The notes beneath the pieces are model-generated. The model had not been told where the DNA came from, ran no database searches, and saw only the letters and a list, made by a program, of their open reading frames with translations. The position numbers and the translations under genes were made by a program. Positions 6,330 to 36,237 of a stretch of 64,000 nt of DNA are shown here, in pieces. Source of the stretch: Aridibaculum aurantiacum (GTDB lineage Bacteria > Bacteroidota > Bacteroidia > Chitinophagales > Chitinophagaceae); the NCBI RefSeq assembly GCF_017355875.1, contig NZ_JAFEWC010000001.1, positions 1,116,001 through 1,180,000 of the forward strand, given 5' to 3'. Position 1 is the first letter of the stretch. Every line of letters begins with the position of its first letter.

Positions 6330-6384
6330 GGGAGGGATATCTACCCGTTCATTTTTCCGCTTATCCTTCTATTTCTCCCATTGT

Positions 6385-6415
6385 TACTATGCAATGTACT
6401 ATGTGATGCATAGTA
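6385..6415. repeat. Perfect 9-bp inverted repeat before the ABC exporter operon
   Basis: TACTATGCA (6385-6393) and TGCATAGTA (6407-6415) form a 9-bp perfect stem with a 13-nt spacer, 86 bp before the ABC exporter start. There is no T-run on the plus strand, so it is not a typical terminator. It could be a regulator-binding palindrome or a weak structural terminator of the amidohydrolase gene. Function is not shown. Confidence 0.35.
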
Positions 6416-6500
6416 GCATAACTTGATGGTGTCACAGGAGCTGCAATGCCTAGTAAGTGCACTGGTAGCTTACCTGTTTACTTAACTAAACCTTCAGTTT

Positions 6501-9446: not shown

Positions 9447-9551
9447 TCCTGCGATGCCTGTATCTCGTAATTCCACTGTCACAGCCGTTCATTTAATTTG
9501 ACTCATATCATTCACTTTCTTCATTATATTCAAACCCTAATCATCATCTTC

Positions 9552-12500: not shown

Positions 12501-12797
12501 GGAACGCTGGTAGGTAAAACTACCTGGGGTGGATTGGTAGGTATATTAGGTTATCCTGAATTTATAGATGGAGGTGAGGTAACAGCACCTAACCTTGCCT
12601 TTTTTGATGAGAATGGTTTTGGAATAGAGAATGTAGGTACACCACCAGATGTAGAAGTAGAGCAGTGGCCATCGCAGGTGATAAAAGGACAAGATCCACA
12701 ATTAGAAAAAGCTATTCAAATTGTAATGGAGGAGCTAAAAAAGAACCCGCCTAAGAAAGCGCCTTCACCAAAATTTCCGGTAAGGGTAAGGCAGTAA
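9552..12797 (+). CDS. Exported tricorn-type S41 serine protease
   Basis: A 1081-aa exported protease. The frame reaches back to a TTG at 9498, but the ATG at 9552 starts the signal peptide (MNIFRYCFFTCSLFLLATTL, then PAQ). The first 650 residues are TolB/WD40-like beta-propeller blades with repeated SPDGxxIAF or SPNGRYIAYLS motifs, as in archaeal tricorn. Next come the C1 helical domain, with the catalytic-region His in SELSVGHHRF, a PDZ-like domain (VQVGDYIMAVNG), and the S41 core with the nucleophile Ser in TAGSGGDYLPY and a likely Glu in FGIENVGTPPDVEVEQWP. It degrades peptides in the periplasm. It ends in a lysine-rich tail and is followed by a hairpin terminator. Confidence 0.92.
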   Translation: MNIFRYCFFTCSLFLLATTLPAQNTSDTRLLWQPTISKDHIAFIYAEDLWVANLDGSYPRRITVSEGAESNPVFSPDGSIIAFTGQYDGNTDVFVVPAAGGVPKRLTWHPGADLVRDFSPDGKKILFASQRNSFTNRYHQLFTVDIATGAEQQLPIPNAFWASYSPDGNSIAYTTIADRFEQWKNYRGGTMSRIWLYDTKSHNVTEIPKPKTGSNDSKPVWKGNKVYFRSDRDGEFNLYSYDPATKAVQSHTKFNDFPVSSLEGTAGKIIFSQAGYLHVFNTATNNTAKIKVGIAADLLDHRPRFVKGDQYIRGGHISPSGARVVMDYRGDIITLPAQKGDVLNLTNTPGVHEKEPVWSPNGRYIAYLSDATGEYNLYIHNQDGSGQPQMIKLNGSGFYAHLSWSPDSKRIAYVDNARRLYVADIASGKSTKIAEDANYIPGPFRNLFGSWSHDGNFISYTTIAETNFERAWVYSISENKSYAVTDAMSNVTEPTFDPSGKYLYVLASTDAGPVVNWFDQSAQDMEATNSIYLITLQKQVKSPFAKENEVEEIKDTASSKAPYKADSNSTKLKIDWDGIQNRIIPLPLSKGRYKSLSVVKEGELFYLSEAPHGATPTMLHMYSFKKRKEEPLMPADGYIIAAKGEKTVYVTKGKWGIASTGQKPGPDAMINTAAIQVKISPKEEWPNIFNEAWRVNRDYFYDPNMHGANWAAMKKKYEALLPDVASTNDLYRIMQWMFSELSVGHHRFAATGDRRSNPDIVPGGLLGADYEVKNNRYRITKIYGGLNWTPNLRSPLTEPGVNVQVGDYIMAVNGAEVTADKNFYSYFENTAEKIVTLTIASTPEGANKRTVKVVPVANEVALRNRDWVEGNMRKVTEATNGQVAYVYVPNTTAEGHEYFKRYFFPQANRAGIIVDERFNGGGQLADYYIDLLKRPAQSYWKYRHGKDQKAPNASIQGPKVMIIDETAGSGGDYLPYLFRQAKLGTLVGKTTWGGLVGILGYPEFIDGGEVTAPNLAFFDENGFGIENVGTPPDVEVEQWPSQVIKGQDPQLEKAIQIVMEELKKNPPKKAPSPKFPVRVRQ

Positions 12798-13245: not shown

Positions 13246-13455
13246 ATGAAGAAACCAAAAGAAGTGGCTTTACTACTGCTTTATACAGGTGCGTTGTCAC
13301 CTGTATTTCCCGTTTACATACCTGCCGTTCTTGCAGGTTTCCTCATCATTTTCCTGTTGTTGATTTCCTGTAACCGTCTAAGTGCCGCGCTCCGCCAGCA
13401 ACCCACTGGTACGCCAGCGTGTGTAGTTACACCCCTAAAATGGAAACTGGTATGA
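13246..13455 (+). CDS. Possible 69-aa membrane peptide overlapping the giant gene start
   Basis: ATG at 13246 opens a frame of 69 codons ([20 protein letters not shown]...) with a strongly hydrophobic middle ([17 protein letters not shown]), so it could be a small membrane protein. Its stop TGA overlaps the preferred giant-gene ATG as ATGA (13452-13455), an arrangement that usually couples translation of two genes. Against it are its short length and a tail ([20 protein letters not shown]) that is unlike a folded domain. It may be a leader peptide, a real small gene or chance. Confidence 0.3.
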
Positions 13456-16400
13456 GAAAAACTTTAGCTTGTTTTAATCACGTTACTCTTGCTGCTGGTG
13501 GTATAGCGCCATCTAATCGCAATAGCAAGAGGGACGTGCTCATAATGATCATGGCACTGGTGCTTCTTAGCGTCAACGGCTTTGCGCAGTTAGGCCAGTA
13601 CCAGTTTAACAGTGTCACATCAAAGTGTCCAAACACTGCGAACACGGTTACAACGCAGCCGGCTAATGCTAATTTTAGTCCCTTTACCAGTTCGGGTGTT
13701 ACTTGTTCGGGTTCGCTTTCCTATTATATTTCGAGTAAATGGAATGTCATTCCAGGACTGGATGTAAATCGCTACCACCAGTTTTCTATTACACCAGATG
13801 TTGATCACCTGCTGACGCTTTCTTCCATTACGTTTAGCCATGCAATGTCTGATAAAGTGATCAATGCACAGTCATGGGCAATTCGTTCAAGCTTAGACAA
13901 TTTTACAACTAACCTATCTTCAGGATCTGTCAACAATACGCTGCAGAATGTGGCGGTAACCCTTCCTGCAGCCAGCTTCACCAACATCGGTGCAGTTACT
14001 TTTCGTTTATACTTTTATAACCCGGAAGCAAATAGTACAGAGTGGATAAATGAAGATGTAACAGTTTTTGGTACTGTGATACCACCACCTGCTACGCCGC
14101 CTAATCCTCTTTCTAATTCTCCGCAATGCGCGCCACCTGGCGTGACTTTGTCATTTAATGGAACACCGCCTGCAGGAGTTTCCTGGTTTTGGCAAACCGC
14201 TGCAACAGGAACTTCCACTACCAGTTCTGCATCTACTTATGTTGCTAGTGCCAGTGGTACCTATTACTTAAGAGCAAGGAATAACTCTACACTTCAATGG
14301 AGTAGTGGTGCAGGAAGTTCAACTGTAACAATAACACCCAATGTGGGTGTTCCTGTGTTTACGGCAGGCGCTTCTTCAAGCCGATGCCAGGCAGCTGGTA
14401 CTGTTAATTACCCGGCTACTGCTACCAACACAACTGGTATTACCTACAGCCTGGATGCTGCAAGTTTATCAGCAGGCAACACTCTCAACAGTGCTACCGG
14501 TGCTGTCACTTTTGTATCTACATGGTCAGGTTCATCTGTTATTACTGCAAGTGCTGCAGGATGTAATGGTCCGGCTACAGCAACCCATACAGTTACTACC
14601 AATCCACTGGTGGCTGTGCCTGTATTCACTAGCGGCGCCAATTCTACCAGGTGCCAGGGAGCAGGAACAGTTACCTATGCAGCTACTGCCGCAAACAGTA
14701 CAGGCATCAGTTATTCTCTTGATGCTTCAAGTGTATCTGCAGGTAACACTATTAATACCACAACAGGTGCGGTAAGTTTTGTTGCCGGATGGACTGGTAC
14801 AAGCACCGTGACAGCAACTGCCACAGGATGTGCCGGCCCAAGAACTGCTCAACATACCATAACCACCACGCCTACAGTAGGGCAACCTGTGTTCGCAATG
14901 GGAGTTGGCAGCAACCGTTGCGAGGGAGCAGAAACAATTACCTATACTGCTACGTCTACCAATACAACCGGTATCACTTATAGCCTGAATGCTGCTGCTT
15001 TGTCTGGTGGCAATACCATCAATTTAGCAACAGGAGCGGTTACTTATGTAGCAGGGTGGAGTGGTACTGCCATCATCACAGCGAGTGCTGCAGGATGTAA
15101 TGGCCCGGTAACTGCCACCCATACTGTACAGGTTGCTGCATTTGTAGGTACGCCTGTATTTGATCCTAATGCTTCGGCTCAAAGATGCCAGGGTGCCGGA
15201 TCTGTTACTTACACAGCAACAGCCACCAATAGTACCAATATTGTTTACAGCCTTGATGCTGCCAGCAGTGCGGGTGGTAATACCATAGATGCTGCTACAG
15301 GTACAGTTACCTATGTAGCATCATGGACGGGTAATGTAACTATAACAGCTGTGGCTTATGGCTGTAACAGTAGTGCTACTGAAACCTATACAGTAGGTGT
15401 ATTTGCTACAACTCCAGAGATCACCACACCAGTATTTGCATTAGGTGCTAATTCTTCTACGTGCCAGGCTTCTCCTAATAACACCTTTACAGCTACATCT
15501 GATTATGCTGCTATTCTGCAGTATAGTTTAGATGCTGCAAGTTTATCAGCTGGTAATACCATCAACCCAAATACGGGTGAGGTGGATTATGCAGATGGTT
15601 GGAGTGGAACTACCCTTGTGACTGCAAGGGCCGAAGGTTGCGGTGGACCAAAATACGGCACCCATAGTGTTACTGTAATTCCTAATGTAGGCACACCTGT
15701 ATTTGCTGCAGGAGCCGCTTCTACAAGGTGTCGTGGGGCAGCAACAGTAACTTATACTGCCAGCGCTACCAATACTACAGGAATAACTTACGCATTGGAT
15801 GGAGCCAGCTTGTCTGCCGGTAATACAATTGATGCATCTACAGGCGCTGTTTCTTTTGCAGAAGCCTGGTTTGGAACGTCAGTAGTTACGGCAACAGCAG
15901 CTGGTTGTAATGGTCCAAGCACGGCTAACCATACTATCACCATTACTGATTATGTAACTACGCCCGTTTTTGATGCAGGTGGTGTTGGTACAAGATGCCA
16001 GGGTGCCGGAACTGCTACTTATACTGCAACCGCCTCTAATACAACTGGTATTACCTATAGCATAGATGCAGCAAGCATAGCTGGTGGCAACACCATCAAT
16101 AGCTCTACAGGCATTGTAACTTTTGTTGCAGGATGGAGTGGTACAACTACCATTACTGCAAGTGCTGCAGGATGTAGTGGTCCGAGAACTGCTACTACTA
16201 CAGTAACTACAACACCCACCGTAGGTACGCCTGTATTTGCGCAAGGCCCTACATCTAGCCGATGCCAGGCTGCAGGAACAGTAACATATACTGCCACTGC
16301 TACTACCACAACAGGAATAACATATTCATTGGATGCAGCCAGCATTTCATCAGGTGTAACCATTGATGCTGCTACAGGCGCGGTTACTTACCCAGCAGGA

Positions 16401-19400
16401 TGGGCGGGAAATACAGTAATAACAGCATCGGCCGCAGGTTGTAACGGACCAGTAAATGCTAGCCACACTGCTACTACAAATCCTCCTGTATCTGCTCCCG
16501 TTTTTGCTTTAGGAAATGAATATTCTCACTGCCAGGGATTGGCATCTGATACATATACGGCTACTGCTACAGCAACTACTGGTATCACCTATTCTTTGGA
16601 CGCAGCGAGCCTCGCAGGTGGTAACACAATCAATGCTACTACCGGTGTTGTAACTTTTGCTTCAACATATACAGGTACAACAACATTAACAGCCAGCGCA
16701 GCCGGTTGTTATGGACCGCAGATAACTGATATTACAATCACAGTTATACCTTCTGTTACAACGCCTGTATTTGCTTCTGGCGCTTCATCTACACGCTGCC
16801 AGGGAGCAGGAACAGTAACATACACTGCTAGTGCCGATCATACAACCGGTATCACTTACAGTTTAGATGCTTCAAGTATCGCCGGTGGAAATACTATTGA
16901 TGCTTCAACTGGTGTAGTAACATACGCCGCAGGATGGACTGGAACTAGTACCATTACTGCAAGTGCAGATGGCTGTAACGGCCCCCGTACCGCCACACAT
17001 ACAGTAACAGTTACTCCTACTGTTGGAACTCCTGTTTTCAGTATGGGTGCTACTTCTACACGTTGCCAGGCTGCAGGAACAGTAACTTATACTGCCACTG
17101 CTTCCAATACCACGGGCATTACCTATGCTTTGGATGCTGCCAGTGTAGCTGCAGGAAATTCAATTGATGCATCAACGGGTGCAGTTACCTATGTTAGTAC
17201 CTGGAGTGGTACAAGTATAGTAACAGCAACTGCCGCAGGATGTAATGGACCGGCAACTGCCACTCACACTGTAACAATAACTGCTGTGGTTGGTACACCT
17301 GTTTTTGCTAATGGTACCACCAGCGAAAGATGCCAGGGCGCTGGTACTGTAACTTATACAGCATCTGCTGCAAACACTACTGGTATTACCTACAGCCTGG
17401 ATGCAGCAAGTGTGTCTGCTGGTAACATCATCAATTCATCTACCGGTACAGTTACTTTTGTGGTAGGATGGAGCGGAACCTCTACTATAACAGCTAGTGC
17501 TGCAGGATGTAGTGGTCCAAGAGTGGCAAGCCATATAGTTACTGTAACACCAACAGTTGGTACGCCTGTGTTTACAATGGGCGCTTCTTCCAATCGCTGC
17601 CAGGCTGCAGGAAGTGTTACTTATGCTGCATCTGCTACCAGTACAACAGGTACAACTTATTCTCTTGATGCAACCAGCACAAGTGCAGGAATTACCATCA
17701 ACCCTTCAACAGGGGAAGTTACTTATACAGCAGGTTGGACAGGAACCACAACCATCACTGCCAGTGCTGCAGGATGTAATGGCCCTGGTACTGCTACACA
17801 TACGGTTACCACCAATGCACCTGTTTCTACGCCTGTATTTAGCAGTGGCGCTTCTTCTACGCGCTGCCAGGGTGCAGGAACAGTAACTTATACTGCTACA
17901 GCTACCGCTACTACAGGTATCACCTATACATTAGATGCAGCCAGCATTTCAGCCGGAAATGCAATTAACAGCACTACGGGTGCAGTAACTTATGTGGCAG
18001 GTTGGAGTGGTGCTTCCACTATCACGGCAAGTGCTGCAGGATGTTATGGACCACAGGTTGCTCAACATACAGTTACCATTACACCTACAGTGGGTACACC
18101 TGTATTTGCAATGGGTGCTACCTCTACAAGATGCCAGGGCGCAGGTACGGTTACTTACACTGCTTCTGCTACCAACACTACCGGTATTACCTATAGTTTG
18201 AATGCTGCTGCAGTTACTGGTGGTTGCACCATTAATGCAACTACTGGTGTGGTTACTTATGCAGCAGCATGGACCGGCAGCACTATCATCACTGCCAGTG
18301 CAGCAGGTTGTAACGGGCCGGTAACAGCTACTCATACGGTTACCATTACACCTACAGTAGGTACACCTGTTTTTTCAATAGGCGCAACCTCAAGCCGCTG
18401 CCAGGCTGCTACAACAGTTACTTACACAGCTACTGCTACCAATACCACCGGAATTACCTACAGCCTCGATGCTACCAGCCTTGCAGGTGGAAATACCATC
18501 GATGCGGCTACTGGTGCAGTTACTTATATTTCGAGCTGGTACGGTACATCAGTAATTACAGCTACTGCTGCGGGTTGTAATGGACCTTCCAGCGCCAGCC
18601 ATACAGTTACCACTAATCAACCTGTTACTGTTCCTGTGTTCGCCAGTGGCGCAACCACAGAACGATGCCAGGGTGCAGGTGTTGTTACCTATACTGCTTC
18701 AGCCAATCATACTACAGGAATTACCTACTCATTGGATGCTGCAAGCATCAGTGGTGGTAATGCGATTAATGCATCTACCGGTGCAGTCAGTTATTCAGCT
18801 ACCTGGAGTGGCACTACTATAATTACTGCAAGTGCTGCTGGTTGTGCTGGTCCGCTAACGGCGCAGCATACAGTAACGGTAACGCCAACTGTTGGAACAC
18901 CTGTATTTGCTATGGGTGCAGCCTCGGCACGTTGCCAGGCTGCAGCAACAATTACTTATACGGCTACAGCTACCACTACCACTGGTATTACTTATAGCTT
19001 AGATGCTACAAGCTTAGCTGCTGGTAATACTATTAATGCAGCTACAGGTGCGGTTACATTCACCGCTGGTTGGAATGGTGTATCAGTTATCACTGCAAGT
19101 GCTGCAGGTTGTAATGGTCCTGCTACTGCTTCACATACCGTTACCACTAATGGTCTCGTTGGCCAGCCAGTATTTGAATCAGGCGAAAGTTCCATTCGTT
19201 GTGCTGCCGCTGCCAACGTTTTCTACCGTGCCAATGCAGTCAACTCCACCAGCGTTACCTATTCGCTGGATGCTGCAAGTATAGCAGCAGGTTTATCCAT
19301 CAACCAGGGAAATGGTAGAATAAGTTATCCTTCAACATTTACCGGCACCGTTTTGATAACTGCAACGGCTGAAGGTTGTAGTGGTCCTACAACAGCTGTT

Positions 19401-22400
19401 CACAGGGCTACAACGTATGGTACACTTGGCGCAACGTCTTTTGCTATGGGTGGAACTTCTACGCGCTGCCAGGGTGCAGGAACTGTAACGTACACAGCCA
19501 ATGCAGCTGAAGCTGTTTCCATCAGCTATAGTCTGAACGCTGCTGCTGTTACCGCAGGTAATTCAATTAATAGCGCTACTGGTGCTGTAACATATGTAGC
19601 AGGCTGGACAGGAAGTACAGTGATCACTGCTACAGCAACAGGATGTAGTGGTACAACTACTACAGCCAATCATACAGTTACCATCACACCTACGGTAGGT
19701 ACGCCTGTCTTTACATTAGGTGCTACCAGCACCCGATGCCAGGCTGCAGGAACCGTTACTTATACTGCTTCTGCTACCAATACCACTGGTATCACCTATA
19801 CGCTTGATGCGGCAAGTATTTCTGCAGGTAATACAATAGTAGCCTCAACAGGTGCAGTTACTTATGCAGCAGGATGGAGTGGAACAACAACCATAACTGC
19901 AAGTGCTGCAGGTTGTAACGGACCTGCTACATCAACACATACTGTTACCATAACACCTGTAGTTACTACACCTGTATTTGCTATGGGCGGTACGTCTACA
20001 CGTTGCCAGGGTGCAGGTACGGTTACATATACTGCAACAGCAAACAATACAACCGGCATCACCTATAGCTTAGATGCTGCCAGTGTATCTGCAGGTAATA
20101 CAATAGTTGCTTCAACAGGAGCTGTTACCTACGCAGCAGGTTGGAGTGGTACAACAACGATCACTGCAAGTGCCGCAGGTTGTAGCGGTCCACGCACGGC
20201 CATTCATACAGTAACCGTTACACCAACAGTTGGTGCACCTGTGTTTACAGCAGGAGCAAGTTCAACTCGTTGTCGTGGTGCGGGCACTACTACTTATGCT
20301 GCTACTGCTACAAATAGTACAGGAATTACCTATAGCCTTGATGCAGGAAGTATCAGTGGCGGTCTAACAATAGACGCAAATACCGGTGCTGTAACTTTTA
20401 CAGCAGGATGGATGGGTACTACAACTGTTACCGCAAGTGCTACAGGTTGTAATGGACCACGTACCTCTACTCATACCATTACTACTAATGGTGCAGTTAC
20501 CTCACCCGTTTTTGCAATGGGTGCCACCAGCACACGTTGCCAGGGCGCAGGTAGTATTACTTATTCAGCTACTGCTACTAACACTACCGGAATTACCTAC
20601 AGCCTGGATGCAGCAAGTATAGCCGGTGGAAATACAATTGTTTCATCTACCGGTGCAGTTACTTATGCAGCTGGATGGAGTGGCACTACCACGATCACAG
20701 CTAGTGCAGCAGGATGTTTTGGTCCTGTAACTGCTGACCACGTAGTAACAGTAACACCGACTGTTGGTACACCTGTATTTGCTGCAGGTGCTTCGTCTAC
20801 GCGTTGCCAGGGAGCAAATACTGCTACTTATACTGCCACTGCAACTAACAGTACCGGCATTACCTACAGCCTGGATGCTGCCAGCACCACTGCAGGCAAT
20901 ACTATCAACAGTTCTACAGGTGCTATCACCTTTGTAGCTGGTTGGGTAGGAACATCTACTGTTACTGCCAGTGCAGCTGGTTGTAATGGCCCACGTACAG
21001 CAACGCATACAATTACTACTACTGCTTCAGTAGCTACTCCTGTATTTGCTATGGGTGCAACATCTACCCGCTGCCAGGGTGCAAATACAGTTACTTATGC
21101 TGCCACAGCTGCTAACAGTACCAGCATTGTCTACAGCCTCGATGCTGCCAGCATCGCAGCCGGAAATACCATCAATTCAGCTACCGGTGCAGTTACTTAT
21201 GTAGCTGCTTATACCGGTACATCCATCATTACAGCTACAGCTAATGGTTGTAATGGTCCAACCACGGCTTCACACACAGTAACAAGTACACTTTCTGTTA
21301 CCACACCTGTATTTGCCAGCGGCGCATCCTCTACAAGATGCCAGGGTGCGGCAACGGTAACTTATGCTGCTTCTGCCAACAATACAACCGGTATCACTTA
21401 CTCGCTGGATGCAGCAAGTATAACGGGCGGCAACACCATCAACACAACAACCGGTGCAGTAACCTATGCAGCAGGCTGGAGTGGAACTACCATCATCACA
21501 GCCAGTGCGGCGGGATGTAATGGTCCTGCTACTGCTACTCATACCGTGACAGTAACTGCTACTGTAGGTGCTCCTGTATTTGCAATGGGCACATCATCTA
21601 ATAAGTGCCAGGGTGCAGAAACAGTGACATATACAGCTACAGCTACTACCTCTACCGGTATCAGCTATAGCCTGGATAATATGAGTTTGCTCGCAGGAAA
21701 TACTATTAATTCTGCAACGGGTGCAGTAACGTATACTGCATTGTGGAATGGTACTTCTACCATTACAGCTACAGCTACAGGATGTAATGGCCCAAGATCA
21801 TCTACCCATACTGTTACTGTTTCAGCTTATGTAGGTAGCCCGATTTTCTTAGCCGGCGAAACATCTACACGCTGCCAGGGCGCAGGTACTGTTACCTATA
21901 CAGCTACAGCTACCAGTACTACAGGTGTTACATACAGTCTTGATGGTGCAAGTTTAGCCGGAGGTAATACTATTAATTCATCAACCGGTGCTGTAACCTT
22001 CACTGCAGGCTGGTCAGGAACTAGCGTGATCACAGCAAGTGCTGCTGGTTGTGCCGGACCTACCACCGCTTCACATACGGTAACTATCACACCTACTGTA
22101 GGTACACCTGTATTTGCATCGGGTAGCATTTCTACCAGGTGCCAGGGTGCAGGTACAATTACTTATTCTGCTTCTGCTACCAATTCTACTGGTATCACTT
22201 ATTCAATAGATGGTACAAGTGCGGCTGCAGGTAATACTATCAATTCGAGCACAGGTGCAGTTACCTATGTTTCTACTTACAGCGGTACTTTAATAATAAC
22301 AGCAAGTGCTGCTGGTTGTAACGGCCCACGTACTGCTACACATACGGTTACAATTACACCAACTGTAGGTACACCGGTATTTGCTGCAGGCACTACATCT

Positions 22401-25400
22401 ACACGATGCCAGGCTGCAGGTACTGTAACTTATACTGCTACTGCTACCAGCAATACAGGCATTTCTTACAGCCTGGATGCAGCCAGTTTAGCAGCGGGTA
22501 ATACAATCAATAACAATACAGGTGCGGTAACATTTACTGCAGCATGGACAGGAGCGTCAACCATTACGGCTACAGCTACTGGTTGTAACGGCCCTTCTGC
22601 CTCTAGCCATACCGTTACCACTACACCATTAGTAGGTACACCTGTTTTTGCATTGGGTGCTACATCAGATCGTTGCCAGGGAGCCGGTACAGCTACATTT
22701 ACTGCTACGGCTACCAATGCTACTGGTATAACTTATAGCCTGGATGGTACAAGTGCGGCTGCAGGTAATACCATTAATACTTCTACAGGTGTAGTAACAT
22801 TTATAGCAGGGTGGAGTGGTAATTCAACCATTACTGCAACTGCATCAGGATGTGGTGGTACACGTTCAGCAACGCATGTAGTTACTACCATTGCTACTGT
22901 AGGTACGCCGATATTTTCGATGGGTGCAAGCTCTACCCGCTGCCAGGGTGGAAACAGTGTTACTTATTCTGCAACAGCAACCACTACTACAGGTATTACC
23001 TATTCATTGGATGGTGCAAGCTTGTCAGGCGGTAATACTATTAATGCTGCTACGGGTGAAGTAACTTATTCAGCTAATTGGAGCGGTACTACTACCATTA
23101 CAGCAAGTGCTGCCGGTTGTAATGGTCCAAGAACAGCCACTCATACTGTGACCGTAACACCTACTGTAGGTACTCCTACATGGACTAATGGAGATGTTAC
23201 ACATCGTTGTGCTGCTGCGCAAAACAACCAGAACTTTTCGGCAACATCTACCAGCTCTACCGGTATGAGTTATAGTTTAGATGCTACAAGTCTTGCAGGT
23301 GGTGTAACCTTAAATACATCTAACGGAAGGATAAGTTTTCCTGCATCCTGGATAGGAACTTCTTACCTGACCGCAACAGCAACAGGATGTAACGGACCCG
23401 TATCAGCAGTGCATACCATCATCACTTATGGTACCATGACTGCTCCTGTATTTGCTATGGGAACTAGTTCCACCCGTTGCTCTGGTGCAGGTACGGTTAC
23501 TTATACAGCAACAGCAGCACAATCTGTTTCTATATCTTATAGCTTAAATGCTGCGGCTCTTACTGCAGGTAACACCATCAATTCATCTACAGGTGAAGTT
23601 ACTTATGTAGCCGGTTGGATAGGAACTACAGTAATAACTGCAACCGCTACAAGTTGTAGTAATGCTACACTTTCATCTTCTCATACTGTAACCATCACAC
23701 CAATGGTTAGTGCTCCTGTGTTTGCCTCTGGAGCATCCTCTACACGATGCCAGGGCGCGGGAACAGTTACTTATTCCGCAACTGCTGCTAACAGTACCAG
23801 CATTACCTACGCATTAGATGCAGCTAGCCTTGCAGGTGGAAACACCATCAACTCAGCTACAGGTGCTGTAACCTTTGCTGCAGGATGGGCGGGTAATAGT
23901 ACCATCACTGCAACAGCCTCTGGTTGTGGTGCTACTGCATCTTCTGCACATACTGTGGTAACTACTCCTACAGTGGGTACACCTGTATTTGCTTCAGGTG
24001 CTTCTTCTACACGGTGCCAGGGCACTGGTACAGTAACTTATACAGCCACAGCTACTAATACTACAGGAATTACATACGCATTAGACGCAGCAAGCATTTC
24101 AGGCGGCAATACAATCAATACTACTACAGGTGCTGTAACATATGCAGCAGGGTGGAGTGGTACTACAACAATCACTGCAAGTGCAGCTGGTTGTAATGGT
24201 CCCCGTACAGCTAGCCATGTAGTAACGGTAACACCAACAGTGGGTGTGCCTGTGTTTACAGCAGGCGCTATTTCTAGCAGGTGTAATGGAGCGGGCACAG
24301 TAGTATATTCTGCAACTGCAACCAATAGCACAGGTATTACATACTCGCTTGATGTTGCAAGTAGTGCTGCGGGTAATACCATAGATGCTTCTACAGGACA
24401 AGTAACCTATGCAGCGGGATGGAGTGGTACTACAACCATCACAGCAAGTGCTGCGGGATGTAATGGTCCACGCACAGCTACACATACAGTTACTGTTAAT
24501 GGTTCAGTTACTACGCCTGTATTCACTTCAGGAGCTTCATCTACGCGGTGCCAGGGTGCTACAACAGTTACTTATACTGCTAATGCTCTCAACACTACCG
24601 GAATAACTTATTCTTTGGATGCTGCAAGCATCAGCGGCGGCAATACCATTAATACAGCAACAGGAGCAGTGACTTTTGCTACAGGCTGGACAGGAACAAG
24701 TACCATTACAGCAAGTGCTGCCGGTTGTTCAGGTCCAAGAACCTCAACACATACTGTTACCACAACGCCTACTGTTGGCACACCTGTGTTTACAATGGGT
24801 GCATCATCTACGCGCTGCCAGGGCACAGCAACAGTAACCTATGCCGCTACCGCTACCAACACTACCGGCATTACGTATAGCCTTGATGCAGCGAGCATCT
24901 CAGGCGGCAACAGTATCAATGCTGTTACAGGTGCAGTAACTTATGTAGGAAGCTGGACAGGAACATCTACAATCACTGCAAGTGCTGCCGGTTGTAACGG
25001 ACCTGTTACTGCAACACATACAGTGACCATCAATCCTCCTGTAGGTACACCTGTCTTTGCAATGGGTGCATCATCTACACGCTGCCAGGGAGCTAACAGT
25101 ATTACTTATACAGCAACCGCTCCTTATGCTGCTACTATTTCATATTCCTTGAACAATGGTCCTTTGAATAATGGAGTTACCATCAATGCTGCAACAGGTG
25201 AAGTAACTTTCCCTGCAACATGGACAGGCAATGCAGTTGTTACGGTTACTGTTACAGGATGTGGTACTACCAGGACAACCAATCACACTGTAACAACTAC
25301 TCCTTATGTAGGAACACCTGTTTTTGCAGCAGGCGCTACTTCTAATCGTTGCCAGGGAGCAGGTACAGTTACTTATACTGCCTCTGCTACCAATACTACC

Positions 25401-28400
25401 AGTATCACTTACAGCCTGGATGCTGCAAGTATAGCTGGTGGTAATACTATTAATAGTGCTACAGGAGCTGTTACTTATACAGCAGCCTGGAGTGGTACAA
25501 CTGTAATCACAGCAAGTGCTGCAGGTTGTAGTGGCCCACGTACCAGCACCCATACCGTAATCATTAATCCTACTGTTGGAACACCTGTATTCGCATTGGG
25601 CGCATCTTCTATTCGTTGCCAGGCAAACCAAGTAGTAACTTATAGTGCAACTGCCACCAATTCTACCAGCATTACTTACAGTTTGGACGCAGCGAGTCTT
25701 GCAGCAGGATTAACTATCAATAGCTCTACAGGAGCAGTTACTTTCATAGCCAGTTATGTAGGAACATCAACTATAACAGCTACTGCCAATGGTTGTAATG
25801 GTCCTGCCAGTGCCAACCATAATGTAACCGTGTACGGACCGGTAGGAACGCCTGTTTTCTCAAGTGGTGCTTCTAGCGTAAGATGCCAGGGTGCAGAAAT
25901 AATATCTTATGCTGCTTCTGCTACCAATGCATGGGGTGGTATAACCTATTCGATTGATGCTGCAAGTGCGGCTGCGGGTAATACCATCAATGCCACTACA
26001 GGTGCCTTGACTTACGATCCTTCATGGAATGGAACAACCATTGTGACAGCATCGGCTGCAGGATGTAATGGTCCTGCTACTGCTACGCATACAATATCTA
26101 TAACACCTACCGTTGGTACACCAGTGTTTGCTAATGGAGAAACATCTATACGTTGCCAGGGTGCAGCTACTATTCAATATACTGCAACAGCTACCAACAG
26201 CACAGGTATCACTTATACGCTTGATCCTACCAGTATAACAGCGGGTAACACCATTAACTCAGGTACAGGTAGGGTAACTTTTGTAGCTGGCTGGGCTGGT
26301 ACTTCGGTAGTAACGGCAAGTGCTTCAGGATGTAATGGTCCTTCTACGGCTGCGCATTCAGTTACTGTTACACCTACTGTTGGTTTCCCTGTGTTTGCAT
26401 TGGGTACATCGTCTACAAGGTGCCAGGGAGCAGGTGTGGCAACTTATTCTGCAACAGCTACCGATGCTACTGGAATGACCTATAGCCTGGATGCTACAAG
26501 TACCGCTGCAGGTAATACCATTGATGCAGCAACAGGACAAATAACTTTCATTGCATCATGGACAGGTACTTCTACTGTTACAGCAACTGCTACAGGATGT
26601 AATGGACCAAGAAGCTCTACTCATACACTCAATACAACTCCTTCGGTTTCTAATCCTGTATTTGTTGCAGGACCAACATCCAGCCGCTGCCAGGGTGCAG
26701 GAACAGTGACAATAACTGCCACAGCTAACAACAGTACCAGCGTAAGCTATAGCTTGGATGCAGCAAGTGTATCAGCTGGAAATACCATCAATGCATCTAC
26801 CGGTGAAATAACATTCGTTTCTACCTGGACAGGCAATACTATAGTGACTGCAACTGCGCAAGGTTGTAATGGACCAGCAACTGCAGACCATATATTGGTT
26901 ACCAATCCGCCAGTAGGAACACCTGTGTTTGCTATGGGTAGTAATTCTGGTCGATGCAGGGGAGCAGCTACCATAACATATTCTGCATCGGCTACAGCTA
27001 TGTCAGGTATATCATACAGTCTTGATGGAACCAGCCTGGTAGCAGGAAACACAATTAATTCAACTACAGGTACAGTAACATGGGTTGCTGGCTGGACGGG
27101 TACTTCAACCATTACCGCAAGTGCTGCAGGATGTTCTGGACCAAGATCAGCAACGCATATTGTGATGACAACCGGTCCTGTTTCTACTCCTGTTTTTTCA
27201 GCTGGCGCTACTTCTACTCGTTGCCAGGCAGCCGGTACTGTTACTTATACTGCTACTGCCACCAATACTTCAGGTATTACTTATAGTCTTGATGGTGCAA
27301 GCTTAGCAGCAGGCAATACCATTGTCGCTTCTACAGGTGCAGTTACCTATGCTGCAGGATGGAACGGAACAACAATTATCACTGCAAGTGCCGCTGGTTG
27401 CGAAGGCCCGAGAACAGCTACACATACTGTAACAGTAACAGCCAATGTGGGTGTGCCGGTATTTGCAAGAGGTACAAGTTCTACGCGTTGCCAGGCAGGT
27501 GGTACAGTTAGTTATTCAGCAACTGCCACTTCTTCTACAGGCATCAGTTATTCGTTGGATAATACAAGTATTGCAGGAGGAAACTCTATCAATTCAGCAA
27601 CTGGTGTAGTAACTTTTTCAGCTGGCTGGACTGGTACTTCTGTAATCACGGCTACAGCTTCCGGATGTGGAGGACCTACAACTTCTACTCATACCGTTAT
27701 TACATTACAAACCGTTACTGCGCCCATCTTTGCTCTTGGTGCTACTTCTGAAAGATGCCAGGGTGCAGGTACAGTAACCTATACTGCATCCGCTAATCAT
27801 TCTACAGGAATCACATATAGCATAAACGCAGCTGCCACATCAGCGGGTAATACCATAGATCCAACTACTGGTGTATTGACCTATGCTGCAGGATGGATTG
27901 GTGACATCATCATTACAGCTTCTGCTGCTGGTTGTAACGGACCTGCGCTATCATCGCACACGGCTACTACTCGTGGTGCAGTAGGTACACCTGTATTTTC
28001 AATGGGTACTAGTTCTACACGTTGCCAGGGAGGAGGTGTATTTAACTATACAGTGAATGCACCTTATAGTACCGGGCTTTCTTTCTCATTAGATGCAATT
28101 AGCTTAACCGCTGGAAATACGATCAATGCTGCTACTGGTTCCATCTCCTTTGTTCCTCAATGGAGTGGTACTTCTACCATTACTGTTACAGCCAGTGGAT
28201 GTAGCGGACCGGTTTCAGCTACACATGACCTTACTACCATTGCTACAGTAGGTCTGGTTACTTTCAACCAAGGTCCTACATCAACACGTTGCCCTGGCGC
28301 AGGTACGGTAAGCTATGCAGCTACAGCAAGTAGTTCTAATGGCATTTCATACGCATTAGATAACGAAAGTTTGGCTGGCGGAGTGACAATCAATCCGGCA

Positions 28401-31400
28401 ACAGGTGTGGTAACTTATCCTGCTGAATGGTTTGGTACTTCTATTGTTACTGCCATTGCATCAGGATGTAATGGACCTTCAGTTGGTACACATACTGTAA
28501 CTACGTATGGTATATTGGGCAATCCTTCATTCTCCTTCGGACCTACATCTACCAGGTGTCGTGGAGTTGGTACGGTAGCATATATTGCTTCTGCACCTAA
28601 TAACTTTGGCCTGGTGTATAGCCTGGACGCAGCAAGCCTTGCGGCTGGTAATAGCATTAATAGTGCTACTGGTGCTGTTAGCTTTGTTTTAGGCTGGAGT
28701 GGTACTTCAGTGATAACGGTAACAGCAATGGGATGTCCTGGTAACCGCACTGCCACACACACAGTAACTACTACACCAAACACGTGTGCGGTAACGATGA
28801 TTGCGAACACTACGGTGAAAACAATTCCTAAAGGATCTATTCTTGTAAATACAGGTATTGTACCGCAAACAGGTGCCAATGCATTGAAGCCTTATGGTCT
28901 TGTGCACGAACTGCTGCGAAATAACATCCCGGTAGAGTGGGTATACAACCAGTCGAAGATCAAAGATGGGGTTGACCTGGTGCACAATAACGTGGTGTAC
29001 AGGGCAGGTGTTTTCATCATCAATGAAGAATTCCTGGCGCCAAATATCATGGCCATCATCAACAACTGGGCGAGCCAGGGTGTTATCATCAATACTGCGG
29101 TAAGCGATTTCAATGTAGAAGTAATTCACACACTGAAGACAGCGCCAACATGGATGATAGATGAATCTCAAACTATCATTGGCAGAAAATATTTCGAATT
29201 CTCGGGCATTCCAAACTCAGCCTGGACAGGAATAGCTCCGGCTAATCTTAATAACTGTCATGACATTTTTGTGCTGCCACATGCTGATGCATCGTGGGAG
29301 AGACACCAGAACATGTATTACTGGAACGAGACCTACAAAGGAAACATCTGGGTAGGTTGTTATGCAGCTTCAGGGCTGGAGAACTTGTACGGACCTGACA
29401 GGAACGATCCTACCAAGACCATCAAGATGAACTTCCTGATGAAGGATGGCCCGGCGCTTGGACAAGTAGCTGTACCATTTACCAGACATCAGAATGCGTC
29501 TCCGCCATTCCAGTACAACTATTCTGGTTTCCCTATCATGCAGTTCATGGGTAAAACAGATAATGCGCATATGAATGGTCCGCAGACCATCTACCTGCCT
29601 CACAAGCAGGGCGGGTGGAGACCATCTACATTTATAGGTGTATACGACCCTACGCAGAAGAACATACCACAGATAAGTAATGGTGAAGCTGCAGCAATTG
29701 CCTTTGGTCGTGCATTTGGCGATGACCAGCGTGGTTGGGTAATGTATACTTCAGGTCACCATATAGCCAATGGTACCACACCAGAGGAAGTAGCGGCAAC
29801 AAGGTCGTTCCTGAACTTTAGCTTCTTTAGCTTACGCGAAAAGAAACCTTCGGTAATGGCAGGTGGTATACAGTCAAGTGTGTTCTCAGGGCAGGTAATG
29901 TCGTTAACAGCATTCGCCTCATCGCAGGATATCAATCCAACCTTTACCTACCAATGGGTATCATCGTGCGGAGGTAGTTTCTCTGATCCAACCGGGTCTA
30001 CTACAACCTTCAATGCACCAAGTGTAACAACAGAAACAAGGTGCCTGATCACTTGTATCATTACTGATAACTGTGGCAGGAAAGCATTTGATACAAGAGG
30101 TATCACTTTGTATCCAAATCCACGTCCACCAGTGTGTGCGCCGGATGTAGCAGTTCTTCCGAATTGCGACGGAAGCACCACGCTGAATGTACTGGCAAAT
30201 GATTCTGATCCTGATGGTGGTGCACTGTCGGTGATGTTGATAGGAAATGGCAGCCAGGGAACCTTTGTGAACAATGGTGATGGTACGGTAACGTATACAC
30301 CACATGGAGCTTTCACTGGTTCTGACCAGATATCTTATAGAGTAACAAATCCTAACGGTTTGAGCTGTACCAGCACCATCACCGTTACAATGAATAATAT
30401 AGATGCTTATGGATGTCGCCCGCATGAGTTCTATACAGTAGTAGGAACCATTAACGCCATGCGTGCAACACCAGTAGGAAACAACCTGGCAGTTAACATG
30501 CCGGCATCGCTCGGCGACCCGGATGGTATACCAGGTGATGGAACAACCTATACAACCTTTGGCAATAGAAACAATGTGGTCAATTATACATTGTCGCAGG
30601 TTATTCCTGCTACAGATACCTTATGGTTTTATGTAGATGGAACTACAGGTGGACAGTTTACTGTAAGTCGTAGTACAGACAGTATTAACTGGACAAACCC
30701 TGTGACTTATACGGTTAATGCTGCTGATGATTTTCTTGAAGCAAGAGCGAAGGCTTATATAGTAACTGCGGGTGTAAGGTGGGTCAAAGTAACAATTCCT
30801 GCCACAACGGTTCAGATAGATGCGATGCAATACAATCTACGTAGTTGTGTGAGTGCAAACCCTGTAGCGGATCACGATGAAGTAGCTACATTGGAAGATG
30901 TACCTGTAACTATAGAGGTGGATGCGAACGATTATGACCCGCAGGGTAAGGAGCTTTATGTTACCAGTATAGTTGAACAACCACTTGTAGGCAAGGTTTC
31001 CATTAACCTTGATAATACCATAACCTACCTGAACCTGAAAGACCAGATTGGTAGCGGTGTTGACTCATTTACATACCGGATTTGTAATAGTGCAGGACTA
31101 TGTGCTAATGCTACCGTGGTAGTGAGAATAGCTGCCGATGGTTGCGGACCTGGTGCATACAAACCTGTTACGTATTCTACTTATACCATTGCGCTAAACC
31201 CCGTAATGGATACTTACCTGAACAATGATGGTAACAGGGGAACCTCTAACTCTATCATAGTTAAAGGAAGAAACGGATCAATCCACAGGGGCTTGTTGCA
31301 GTTCAATATGGCGGGCATACCAGCCAATGCAATTGTTGACCAGGCGGTGCTCAGGCTCTACCAAACAGCAGGACCAACCAGTGAGGCGGTAAAAATACAC

Positions 31401-34400
31401 CGCGTTACCAGACAGTGGAATGAAACATCGGCCACGTGGAGTGCTGCTACAGCAACCACCAACTGGACTACTGCGGGTGGTGACTTCAACAGTACCATTG
31501 TGGCATCGAACTACTTGTATGGTAATAACCCTGCTTACAAGAATTTCAACATCAGGTCGGTGGTGCAGGATTGGGTTACTGGTAACTTCGCTAATTATGG
31601 TGTAATGCTTACAAGGAACCCTGAAGGTTCGGGTACTAAAGAATTCATCTTTAACTCAAGAGAGGCAGGTTCTAACAGGCCGATGCTACTGATCAGTTAC
31701 AGGGTGCCGCTGGCATGTACAGCTATACCTGCTTATGCACCGCTGGCTATGCCTGATACAACCACCACCAATTCTGTTACACCAGTTACCATACGTGTTA
31801 CTCAGAATGACTATGACTATAACAATACAGGTCTTTCGGTAGAACTAATGACAACCACAACTAGCCATGGTGGTACCTTAACAAAGTCGGGCAACTCGGT
31901 AATCTATACGCCGCCGGCAACCAATCCTGCTTTCAACGGAGTAGATACTTTCTGCTACAGGGTAAGCAGTGGTAACCTGTGGGATACATCAAGAGTATTC
32001 ATCAATGTGCTGAATGCGAAGCCACGTGCGGTAGCAGATAGTTTTGCAATCCTGTCAAACACCGTTTCTACACCTTCATCTTTCTCTGGTGGAAACATAC
32101 GTGTAAATGATAGCGATCCGGAAGCTTCTACACTATCACTACCTGTGATTGTGAAGACACCGAAGAATGGTGTAGCTACCATTTCGGCAACCGGTACTTT
32201 GTCTTATACACCAAACGTGAACTTCATTGGCCGCGACACAGTGTGGTATTCGATTACAGAGAACACAGCTACCAGTTGTTCGTTGCTGAAGGATACTGCA
32301 ATGGTGATCATGATTGTGAACAACAGGCCACCGGTTTCTACAGCAGATAGCTATACCATTAATGCATGTGAGGCTACAGAGATCAGCCCGCTGCTAAATG
32401 ATATGGATCCTGAATTTGGTGTGCTGCGTATAGAGATTGTTACACAACCATCAACAGGTGTGGCGGAATTGACGAACAATAATTCGCAGATACTTTATAT
32501 ACCACCGGCAGGAGTTAATAACGCAGTTACCTCATTTACCTATAGAGCTTGTGATAATCAAAATCCATCGCTTTGTGGTAACACGGTCACAGTCTCTCTT
32601 ACCATTCGACCTATGCCAACCGTGAACAATGCACCGGTTACGGTAAGAGATACGTTCAGAACGGATATGGGTGCGCTGCTGTACGCGGATGTACTGACAA
32701 ATGACTCAGATCCTGATGGCCATGAATTTAAACTGCCGGTAGATGTGGTAACACAGCCGGTACATGGTACAGTAGTGCCAATGGAAAATGGTTTGATGTT
32801 GTACACACCAAACCCTACTTACTACGGTATCGATAGTTTCCAGTACCGGATCACAGACAGTATCATAACGCTGAATGGCTGTCCGCCACCAGCATCATTA
32901 AGTGCTACTGAATGGGCTATCATCATTGTACAGGATGCACCGATTGCTACCTGGGAACGAGTGGCTACTGGCAGGGGAGTACCAGTTATTATCAATGTAT
33001 TGGACAATGATATTTTTGGCGCACACGGTCCAAGAACAGGAAGGATTGCAATAGCAATGTCACCATCAAGGGGTGCAAGTGAAGTGCTCAACAACGGATC
33101 ATCTACCCAGGCTGGAAATACAATACGTTATACACCTCAAAACGGTTTCTCTGGGTTGGATTCACTCATTTACCTGATATGCGATAACAAGAATACCTGT
33201 GACACCGCGATAGTATATATATGGGTAGGTGCAGACTCTGATAGCGATGGCGTGCCTGACGAGATAGATATAGATGATGACAATGACGGTATACCGGATT
33301 ATGTAGAGGTTTGCGGGGCAGGTGCTACCGGCTTCTCGTGTACGCCAAATGGCTCAGATCCTTCTGCGGATGATGATGGAGATGGTGTCATCAATTACAA
33401 AGACGCCAAGTGGTGTGTACTGAATTCAGCAGGCACATGTGCCTTCCTGGATACTGATGGAGATGGTGTACCAGATTACCTGGATAAGGATAGTGACAAT
33501 GATGGTATACCAGATGTTATAGAGGCGTTGGGTGTAGATGCAAATGGTGATGGTATCATTGACAACTTCTGCGATAGGGATGGCGATGGTTTATCAGATA
33601 ATGTAGATGCCAATCTTTCTGGCGCAGCCAACAGTGGCCAGGGATTAGGAGCACCTGATTTTGATAACGATGGTATACCTAACTCTAAAGATTTGGATAG
33701 TGATAATGATGGTATTCCAGACATTGTAGAAGCTTACGCTATTGATGCCAACAATGATGGCAGGGTAGACAATTTTGTAGATAATGATGGAGACGGTTGG
33801 AGTAACCAGTATGACGGCGATGCCAACGGAGACTTTATTGTAGAAAACCTGCAAGGTGTACTTATTCTTACAGCACCGCAAGACTATGGAGGAGACTGCA
33901 TGCTACCGCTGAATGGAAGAGCTACCTGTTATACACTTAGAGGAAATGCAGATAATCATGGATATCCAAACTTCATAGACTTGGATAGTGATGGAGATGG
34001 CATAACAGATGCAACAGAAAGTGGCATTACCGCAACCAGCTACAACCGTGGAATGGTTACCGGCTGTACGCTGGCGAATGGATGGTGTTCTTCAGTACGT
34101 GCATTAAATTTTTTATTGCTCAGGAACACCGACACACATGGCAGACCAGATGTGTATGATATAGACTCAGACAATGACGGTATAACCGATAATGTGGAAG
34201 CACAACCAACCAGCAGTTATATAGTTCCTACAGATGTGGACACGGATGGTGATGGGCTGGTGAATGTATACGACTTCTTCAACGGCATTGGTGGAAACGG
34301 ATTGACACCGTATGATCATGATGCTGATGGTGTGCCTGATTACCGTGATACAGATACGGATAATGATGGAGCACCTGATAGGAATGAAGGCGACATGCGT

Positions 34401-35198
34401 TTCTTGACATTTGCTCAAACCACCATTAACTCAGACACTGACCTGGATGGTGATGGACTGATGGATTGTTTCGATATCCACGACCTGCGAGCAGCCAGGT
34501 GCGGCACTACATTTATGAATGTGGGTATGAGTAATATGGGTCCTACAGGTAACTACGATGGACCTTCGCCTGGCGGTTCTACCATTCAGCTGGTAAAATC
34601 AGTAAGTACTGCAGCGGACCGTGATTGGAGGAACTCTACTACGTTACCGTTAAACATCATTAGTTTCAATGGTAAGCTGGTAAGTAATGTGGCTAACCTG
34701 GTTTGGAAAGTAGAAAACGAGCAGGAAGTAGATAAGTATATAGTGGAGCGTAGCAGCGATGGAGTGAACTTTGGTGCAGAAGGTATTCGCTTGTCCAACA
34801 ATAGCAATACAGCTACCTACACCTTTGCCGATGACCTGTCACTATACGTACACAACGTAGTGTACTACCGCATTCGCCAGGTTAATAAGGATGGCCAGTA
34901 TTTCCATACGAAAACAATCATGTTCAGCTTTAGCAAAGACATTGCTTTGGTTGCTACAGTATATCCAAACCCGGTAATAGATAAGCTAACAGTTACTATT
35001 CCATCATTGTCACCTCAGCAAGGCACTATAGTGATAGCAGATGCTTCAGGTAAAACAGTAATGATGAAAAAGGTGGAACTGGAAAAAGGCGAAAATAGGA
35101 TATTGATGGAAGGGGTGGAAAGACTTTCGAAAGGCGTTTACCTGGTGCAGGTACGAACAGCAGAGATCAGTTCGAACATCAAGGTAGTAAAGCAGTAG
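13452..35198 (+). CDS. Giant T9SS-secreted repeat protein, 54 tandem Ig-like units, adhesin-like
   Basis: About 7,248 aa. ATG at 13452 is preferred; ATG 13440 and GTG 13419 are alternatives. Residues 1-46 form a long-n-region signal peptide ending VNGFAQ. A jelly-roll-like domain (47-210) and one Ig-like domain (213-297) follow. Residues 298-5110 are 54 units of about 89 aa, each with VGTPVF...[14 protein letters not shown], then [23 protein letters not shown], then [16 protein letters not shown]; they resemble He_PIG/cadherin-like folds, with a conserved Cys pair. Next come an unrecognised domain (5111-5467), PKD/cadherin-like domains, a DNRLRE domain (5908-6085), more cadherin-like domains with NDSDPDG motifs, thrombospondin type 3 calcium repeats (6594-7003) and a type A T9SS sorting domain (VYPNPV near 7170 to the end). 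It is presumably displayed on the surface as an adhesin or matrix protein. The partner is unknown. Confidence 0.9.
14343..28781 (+). repeat. Tandem array of 54 in-frame coding units of about 267 bp
   Basis: Counted by the RCQ-type Cys and the GCNG-type Cys in each unit, there are 54 units (14,439 bp, mostly 89 codons, few indels). Units differ mainly in the linker (TPT, NPP, YGT, NGx, TAx) and at positions 6-10. Many near-identical protein units (for example 21, 22 and 24) differ at numerous synonymous sites, so the array is not a recent expansion but is held at the protein level. Units 19-20 and 34-35 share private variants. Confidence 0.9.
28782..29850 (+). other. Unrecognised 360-residue domain inside the giant protein
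   Basis: Between the 54-unit array and the cadherin-like region lies a non-repetitive globular stretch containing [41 protein letters not shown], the [12 protein letters not shown] strand, [36 protein letters not shown], a [11 protein letters not shown] block, [18 protein letters not shown] and [17 protein letters not shown]. The alternating strand and helix look like an alpha/beta fold with conserved His, Cys and Asp residues. I suspect relatives in other large Bacteroidota surface proteins, but I cannot name a family. The region could be a catalytic domain rather than a stalk. Confidence 0.5.
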
Positions 35199-35286: not shown

Positions 35287-36237
35287 ATGAACAATATATT
35301 TCCAATGAAAAATTCAATTAAAACACTTATTGTGGCTACTGTATTTTGTATACAGGCCAATGCTCAACAACCAGATAGTAGCCTTACAGGTACTACGGTA
35401 AATTCCAATGTAGTCGTAGATACTATGTTGCCTACCCAGGTGGTAAGGGTAAAAAATCTAAAATTTAAAGAAACTACATCATCACCTTACAAGCTAAATT
35501 GGAAAGCTGATGTACCCATAATAGCAGGTGGTATAGGCTTGACTGCTTTGGGTGTAAAAAGAATAGCGGACCGAAGAGACCTGACACCTGCAGAACTTGC
35601 CCAGAAAACCGCCGATAATGTTCCCTGGTTCGATCGGCATAGTGCCGGGTGGTTTGATAAGCGTGCTGATGATATCAGCTATCCGCCGTTCCAGGCTTCA
35701 TTTGCGATGCCGCTTTTAGTAGGGGTATTAAATAAAAACATGAGGCAGGACTATGGCAAGTTGATGGTAATGTACCTGGAAACGATGGCCATTACCGGCG
35801 CATTGTTTACCAATACAGCTTCCATAGCAGGACGTGCCAGGCCATTTGTATATACCGATAAAAATGGTAATGCAGCTCCCGAGGTAGACGAAGCTTATAG
35901 AAGAAGTGGAAATAACCAGCGCTCATTTTATGCAGGACATACTGCTGCAACTGCTGCTGCAACGTTCTTCACTGCAAAAACCTTCAGCGATCTGAATCCA
36001 AATTCAAAGGCTCGTGTGTATGTTTGGATAGGGGCTGCTGCTGTACCTGCTTTTGTTGGTTATATGAGGCACAAAGCAGGCATGCATTTCTTAAGTGATA
36101 ATATTATAGGTTATGCAGTTGGCGCTGCCACAGGTATTCTTGTTCCGCATTTCCATAAAGTAAAAGTGAAGAACTTGTCAGTGACACCGCAAGCAGGAGG
36201 GAGGTACAACGGGCTGCTGGTAAGGTATAAGTTGTAA
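35287..36237 (+). CDS. PAP2-family phosphatase-like exported protein
   Basis: A 316-aa protein of the type 2 phosphatidic acid phosphatase family. It has an N-terminal signal peptide (SIKTLIVATVFCIQANAQ; a Met at 35305 is an alternative start). Catalytic motif 2 appears as SFYAGHTAATAAATFF (active-site His), and motif 3 as RHKAGMHFLSDNIIG (Arg, His, Asp). Motif 1, normally KX6RP, reads ASIAGRARPFVY, so the Lys position is Ala while RP is kept. Related Bacteroidota proteins carry hydrophobic segments and a periplasmic active site and may dephosphorylate lipids, undecaprenyl pyrophosphate or lipid A. The missing Lys may alter activity. The gene is bounded by terminators on both sides, so it is its own unit. 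Confidence 0.8.
   Translation: MNNIFPMKNSIKTLIVATVFCIQANAQQPDSSLTGTTVNSNVVVDTMLPTQVVRVKNLKFKETTSSPYKLNWKADVPIIAGGIGLTALGVKRIADRRDLTPAELAQKTADNVPWFDRHSAGWFDKRADDISYPPFQASFAMPLLVGVLNKNMRQDYGKLMVMYLETMAITGALFTNTASIAGRARPFVYTDKNGNAAPEVDEAYRRSGNNQRSFYAGHTAATAAATFFTAKTFSDLNPNSKARVYVWIGAAAVPAFVGYMRHKAGMHFLSDNIIGYAVGAATGILVPHFHKVKVKNLSVTPQAGGRYNGLLVRYKL

Follow-up and report, generated by a model that had tools for sequence, protein, structure and literature searches.

A stalk module of 54 Ig-like units, probably joined to a complete T9SS surface protein, in a giant gene of Aridibaculum aurantiacum

Giant fibrillar surface proteins are a known class. In Periscope proteins, a long stalk of like domains projects an N-terminal domain, and proline-containing linkers likely contribute to stalk elongation; according to the same source, adjacent domains are usually <50% identical (PMC8201768, in excerpt). 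LapA contains 37 stalk units (PMC7616799, in excerpt), and type A cargo of the type IX secretion system (T9SS) is anchored by covalent linkage to anionic lipopolysaccharide (PMC9143113, in excerpt). We analyzed a 64,000-nucleotide stretch of Aridibaculum aurantiacum (the window; positions below count from its first letter unless a contig is named), which contains a giant gene at 13452-35198 on the forward strand. Its open frame from the ATG at 13452 encodes a predicted protein of 7,248 aa and 728 kDa, and a search of the open-licence literature turned up no description of it. We consider it probable that a stalk module, composed of a signal peptide, an N-terminal domain, an immunoglobulin (Ig)-like stretch and an array of tandem units, was joined, with the reading frame kept, to the mature N-terminus of a complete T9SS surface protein of a second type, and that the product is a T9SS-exported, outer-membrane-anchored fibrous surface protein.

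The second type is represented by p2168, a stand-alone T9SS protein encoded by a 2,168-aa frame in the same genome (contig 1, 1050583-1057086), ~72 kb from the giant gene. The last 2,137 residues of the giant protein (5112-7248) aligned end to end with p2168 over 2,159 columns at 54.5% identity. In p2168, a signal-like segment is followed directly by an uncharacterised domain (UD) of ~355 residues, without a stalk; in the giant gene, UD is located at 28782-29846 (+), directly after the array, and begins the part common to the two proteins. This conserved domain was missing from a sequence-only reading made earlier, which had described a mosaic C-terminus; that description did not hold, and the C-terminal part was found to be colinear with a complete stand-alone T9SS protein. 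On this alignment, the part behind the array is one complete protein. Identity to p2168 was 43-56% in UD, the cadherin-like region and the CBM96 domain and 69-81% in the Asp-rich repeats, and it was lower in the sorting domain.

A tree of 14 UD domains placed the giant protein and p2168 as sisters with a support of 97/97, with the giant protein on the longest end branch (0.92). The alignment and tree contained 14 of 23 rows, and nine partial matches (L022-L030) were left out. By eye, 11 of the 14 full-length copies have UD immediately after a signal-like segment at the N-terminus, and the other three (the giant protein, L020 and L021) have it internally. In the family sample, UD was present in 18 of 294 genomes, 11 with a full-length copy and seven with a partial match only. 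It was absent from all nine other genomes of the genus, and in the phylum sample, where the best four or fewer candidates per genome were scored, it was found in one of 395 genomes, the window's own. A genome search with the single UD sequence of the window returned one relative, L031, and no UD was found in viral contigs.

UD lacks a Pfam match: the best E-value for the 14 copies was 0.09, and none of the PDB sequences matched the UD profile. Three residues, C193, H167 and H326, are invariant, and the motif around them prompted the idea of a ThuA/GATase-like or a caspase-like domain. The ThuA/GATase-like assignment was rejected, with an hhalign probability of 0.2% against 12 ThuA sequences (12 usable of 25 loci), and the caspase-like one is suggested as an unconfirmed candidate. 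An internal repeat within UD was likewise not supported (hhalign, 0.2%). A two-row structure model of UD was poor, with a predicted local distance difference test score (pLDDT) of 42, and its fold matches were uninformative, with none at E 0.001. A third UD protein of the same genome, L053 (1,727-aa frame, ~563-571 kb of contig 1), breaks off within PKD-like repeats; repeats like these continue in another frame for at least 908 aa, which points to a frameshift, a pseudogene or a sequencing error.

We compared the giant gene with a genus sample of ten genomes, one per species, in which G000 is the window's genome and the congeners with an array are G001, G005, G006 and G008. The N-terminal module of the giant protein (13590-14342, +) consists of a domain of unknown family (residues ~47-220) and one Ig-like stretch (~221-297). 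It was found in five of the ten genomes, one copy each, and these are exactly the five with unit matches; the identity in the four congeners was 45-54%. In G008, a 6,336-aa frame contains an array of 29 units, and in G006 a 4,192-aa frame contains one of 17; the arrays of G001 and G005 are split over contig ends into 10 + 7 units (at least 17) and 4 + 3 units (at least 7), respectively. A few units occur in one further gene each of G001 (two), G006 (two) and G005 (three), and these seven matches were excluded from the unit comparisons and from the 124-unit tree described below.

In all four congeners, the stretch that follows the array, up to the last ~630 residues, is unrelated by BLASTP to the corresponding stretch of the giant protein. 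The start of the congener base matched p2908, a 2,908-aa stand-alone frame of the window's genome, at 30-31% over 503-510 columns; this match begins at p2908 residue 40-45, where the signal-like segment has just ended. The end of the base matched p2908 at 47-49% over 679-715 columns in G006, G005 and G001, and at 50% over 559 columns and 42% over 593 columns in G008. By these positions, the module with signal peptide, tip and array occupies the site at which a T9SS protein would carry its signal peptide, and it does so in front of two protein types. Within the genus, this stalk module, which brings a signal peptide of its own, thus appears joined to two different surface proteins. Among the matches listed, the unit and UD occurred together in the window's genome and in no other of the 294 (unit search of the family sample: the best 18 or fewer candidates per genome scored, E <= 1e-10).

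p2168 and p2908 are separated by 3 kb that contain one 873-aa frame. The three frames stand side by side at 1050583-1068845 of contig 1 (L098, L099) and thus include stand-alone relatives of both base types.

The frame of the giant gene contains zero internal stops and zero N from the ATG at 13452 to 35198, in agreement with the single uninterrupted frame of ~7,248 codons claimed by the sequence-only reading. Alternative starts are a GTG at 13419 and an ATG at 13440. The window sits within a 2.8-Mb contig of a 4.86-Mb genome, and the giant gene is the largest T9SS-domain frame in this genome, with an open frame of 7,274 aa compared with 4,920 aa for the next (79 matches). The putative signal peptide (residues 1-46, 13452-13589, +) was read by eye as a hydrophobic stretch at residues 29-46 that ends in FAQ and follows a long n-region, and a later start codon is also possible. 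Judged by eye, all five array proteins seem to carry a long n-region of ~28 to 60 residues ahead of the hydrophobic signal-peptide core, unless their true start codons lie further downstream.

The array (14343-28781, +; residues 298-5110) consists of tandem units of 89 aa, rarely 90 and once 92. A motif scan of the frame found 52 anchors, two of which span double units, giving 54 units, and a search of the whole genome with a unit profile returned 54 matches, all within the giant frame; the earlier count of 54 was therefore exact. The mean pairwise protein identity of the 54 units was 61.3% (range 33-85%). At the DNA level, the mean was 62.8% and the best pair reached 75.3%; both means, in protein and in DNA, are far beyond chance. 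Similarity did not fall off across lags 1-24 and was slightly lower at some lags >25; DNA identity dipped slightly below the chance level only at certain distant lags (33 and 40). Neighboring units were 60.4% identical in protein on average, with >50% identity in 44 of 53 neighbor pairs, and were slightly, though not clearly, less alike than expected from chance order, as 6% of permutations were as low.

No repeated 31-mer was found in the array, so collapse or expansion during assembly should not have occurred, and an assembly artefact is unlikely. A frameshift or stop inside the array, which had been named as a point to check, was not present in the assembled frame; here collapse was judged unlikely from the assembly, not from reads. 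At sites where two units share a residue, the codon was identical in 45.3% of cases compared with 38.9% expected from codon usage, which indicates that silent sites across the array are close to saturation. Because of this near-saturation, we regard the array as old. Active avoidance of DNA identity between units was not supported, since codon identity is above, not below, expectation (0.453 versus 0.389), and simple age would be enough to account for the low DNA identity between units.

Each of the 54 units has two invariant cysteines, whose position suggests a disulfide. Their codons are strongly skewed despite the silent-site saturation: the first is TGC in 48 of 54 units and the second is TGT in 52 of 54, and the congener arrays show the same lean. 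In 16 other stretches of window genes with the same next base, TGC:TGT was 6:8 before C and 7:18 before A; next-base context may explain part of the bias at the second cysteine, but not that at the first. The array is also extremely depleted of lysine, with two lysines in 4,813 residues compared with 53 in the 2,138 residues behind it; lysine makes up 0.3-0.9% of the congener arrays.

To place the unit, we searched Pfam with the 54 single units. The best E-values were 7.6e-5 for DUF2460 (18 members) and 1.2e-4 for He_PIG, a putative Ig domain (four members), and the corresponding best scores, estimated at ~23 bits, lie under the cut-offs of 30.4 and 24. Among nine six-unit stretches, units 31-36 summed to 30.8 bits for DUF2460, just above its cut-off of 30.4, but significant in no single stretch; the remaining eight were under every Pfam cut-off, and NCBIfam gave nothing above cut-off for any of the nine. 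The profile search proposed for the unit has thus been run, and no family in Pfam or NCBIfam clearly claims it. Structure prediction, the other check proposed, was carried out on two units with AlphaFold2 from an alignment of the 53 overlapping unit pairs of the window. The model had a mean pLDDT of 97.1 and a predicted template-modelling score of 0.80, and Foldseek matched it to cadherin EC pairs (best E 4.8e-9, template-modelling score 0.65 by query) and also to titin Ig pairs. The unit is, on this confident model, an Ig/cadherin-like sandwich; the description of the units as Ig-like stood up, although their placement in Pfam and NCBIfam is not clear.

We examined how the arrays may have grown. 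In G006, units five apart were 96% (2/7), 90% (5/10) and 81% (4/9) identical in DNA, with only 61% for 3/8, and units 5/10 of G001 were 94% identical. Units 1-7 in the second piece of the G001 array have units 11-17 of G006 as their one-to-one counterparts (79-85%). Units spaced by multiples of five were more alike than others in G008 (DNA z 4.0, protein z 5.1) and G006 (DNA z 3.9, protein z 3.4). Part of the growth of the congener arrays was by five-unit blocks. In the window array, period five was weak (protein z 3.0, P 0.003; DNA z 1.5, P 0.08), with a higher DNA value at period 12 (z 2.4); 12 periods were tried each time, and the period-five signal of this array alone is borderline. In a tree of 124 units, the pairs 19/34, 20/35 and 23/38 of the giant protein had support of 90, 90 and 84 and point to an old 15-unit duplication. 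The same tree united G000_16 with G008_06, G006_06 and G001a_06 (support 92), and clades of this kind suggest that some unit types predate the species. Species labels changed 49 times on the tree, compared with a mean of 62 and a minimum of 56 in 200 shuffles; the history of the arrays may therefore be partly one of shared ancestry and partly one of growth within lineages.

Export by T9SS is supported by the C-terminal sorting domain (type A; 34959-35174, +), which scored over two curated cut-offs (PF18962, 40.2 bits with cut-off 27; TIGR04183, 38.5 bits with cut-off 23), and by machinery encoded in the genome, namely homologues of SprA (2,476 bits, cut-off 200) and of the PorU sortase (1,368 bits, cut-off 420). 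These results support the predicted surface display. Between UD and the sorting domain, seven cadherin-like/Big_9 stretches (30126-33302, +, end approximate) flank a CBM96/DNRLRE domain (31191-31697, +), and both passed curated cut-offs. Of the PKD/cadherin-like region described earlier, the cadherin-like half was recovered and the PKD half was not, as no PKD family matched behind the array; the DNRLRE region was recovered as described. The Asp-rich thrombospondin-3-like repeats (33303-34635, +, boundaries approximate) are visible in the sequence, and the only family match for the proposed thrombospondin type 3 region was to a sub-threshold NCBIfam model, NF047638.

These features suggest how the protein might be displayed. 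The C-terminus would be held at the outer membrane, and the base, comprising UD, the cadherin-like stretches, CBM96/DNRLRE and the Asp-rich repeats, would stay near the cell. The 54-unit array would carry the N-terminal domain outward as a tip, the likely contact site. An Ig/cadherin domain spans ~4 nm, and a rod of 54 such units would therefore be ~200 nm long. The rod shape itself is extrapolated from the two-unit model, and prolines around the unit borders (consensus TP.VGTP) fit a stiff rod. Adhesion to a surface or to other cells may follow, though the suggestion is a weak one; that the tip adheres, or that the CBM96-like domain binds carbohydrate, is no more than a reasonable guess.

Several points weigh against a stalk module having been joined to a p2168-type protein. 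All signal peptides in the analysis were judged by eye, and Pfam and PDB sequence searches revealed no known adhesive domain in the N-terminal (tip) module (best Pfam E 0.019, five members; no PDB sequence at E <= 1). The arrays of G001 and G005 are broken at contig ends. Residues ~530-2230 of p2908 are unmatched by the congener base, except for a 111-column piece with G006, and since the match is limited to the start and the end, "p2908 type" is a looser term than "p2168 type". Fourfold-degenerate sites between the giant gene and p2168 are saturated throughout (identity 0.22-0.44), and the joining is therefore undatable. The direction of change, joining rather than loss, is inferred from the distribution and is not settled, and the last ~630 residues are related in all base parts (66% identity between the giant protein and p2168, 48-55% between it and the congeners). 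This common end would agree with an origin in which array-bearing full-length proteins came first and the stand-alone p2168 and p2908 later lost the stalk, rather than being base donors. We consider such loss unlikely, because 15 of the 101 genera in the family sample have UD proteins (counting partial matches), with UD and the unit together in one genome among the matches listed, and because the base upstream of the last ~630 residues differs wholly between G000 and the four congeners.

The differing unit numbers in the genus (54, 29, 17 and two arrays split over contigs) and the recent five-unit copies in G006 and G001 would be expected of a length-varying Periscope stalk that recombines between near-identical repeats. 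Length variation is tied to high DNA identity in that system (PMC8201768, in excerpt), and neither the best unit pair of the giant gene nor any 31-mer offers it, which makes this explanation improbable for the array studied here. A gliding adhesin of the SprB kind is very improbable: the giant protein shares with SprB of Flavobacterium johnsoniae (669 kDa, 6,497 residues; PMC9950754, in excerpt) the phylum Bacteroidota, T9SS and a similar size, but no SprB repeat family matched in it, its sorting domain is of type A, and SprB repeats are found in a separate protein at 38053-43659. The Pfam matches listed for the N-terminal module, for the array (nine six-unit stretches) and for the part after the array did not include SprB repeats (PF13573). 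We give hardly any credence to an assembly chimera of two genes. In its favor, the combination was seen in only one genome of those searched, yet the frame is open across the joint, which falls at a domain boundary, the C-terminal part is only 54% identical to p2168 and hence no copy of that locus, and the array has no long repeat to mislead an assembler.

The joining of a stalk module to a p2168-type protein, which we prefer, would make the giant gene a clear case of giant-gene origin in which a ready-made stalk came before a ready-made surface protein, and not only one of growth of a single gene, with two different partners for one stalk within one genus. It also contrasts with recombination-driven variation in stalk length, as adjacent units are ~60% identical in protein although no 31-mer recurs in their DNA. 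The elements that seem new are a single stalk module that precedes two different T9SS proteins within a genus, and two domain families, the unit and UD, that are not clearly covered by Pfam and whose alignments are ready for curation. We propose, tentatively and with more doubt than confidence, a mobile 5' "stalk cassette" made up of signal peptide, tip domain and Ig array, which could be inserted in frame ahead of the mature starts of different T9SS proteins, lifting a new tip from the cell and leaving the old protein at the base. Array length would be held rather than switched, with the protein unit kept and DNA identity lost, and UD would be a new family whose invariant Cys and His residues are perhaps catalytic.

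We compared 26 window genes with 11 stretches of G001, G006 and G008 for a shared chromosomal place, and only the PAP2-family gene matched, in G008. This gene (35287-36237, +) lies 88 bp downstream of the giant gene and is a candidate neighbor only; its homologue in G008 is 59% identical and ~8 kb from the giant gene of that genome. The frame at 38053-43659 encodes a second large T9SS surface protein of 1,868 aa with SdrD_B-like domains besides its SprB repeats, and a Tricorn-like protease gene (PD40, PDZ, S41) is located upstream of the giant gene at 9498-12797.

Among the systems compared, p2168 is the closest, being colinear with residues 5112-7248; unlike the giant protein, it has its own signal-like segment before UD and no stalk. 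The array proteins of the four congeners share the N-terminal module and the unit family and differ in their arrays and, except for the last ~630 residues, in their base. LapA and the Marinomonas ice-binding protein are exported and anchored differently from the giant protein, by type I secretion. Like it, they use many ~100-residue stalk domains as an extension module (PMC7616799, in excerpt). Periscope proteins have the same general arrangement as the giant protein, and in both cases the unit number differs among relatives; the repeats of the former are highly alike in DNA, whereas the giant's units, at most 75.3% and on average 62.8% identical, lack this feature, and at the protein level its neighboring units exceed the <50% usual for adjacent domains (PMC8201768, in excerpt). 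SprB is likewise a huge repetitive surface protein of Bacteroidota (PMC9950754, in excerpt), from which the giant protein differs in its type A sorting domain and its repeat units. Giant1-5 of Apilactobacillus kunkeei are extracellular proteins of 3,000-8,000 residues with tens of imperfect repeats, but they belong to a lactic acid bacterium and have other domains and other repeat types (PMC12863079, in excerpt). Of the features by which fibrillar adhesins are defined (PMC9210967, in excerpt), the giant protein has the long rod-like repetitive region, with 54 units and a confident two-unit model, and a cell-surface anchor in its T9SS type A domain, by which anchoring is predicted.

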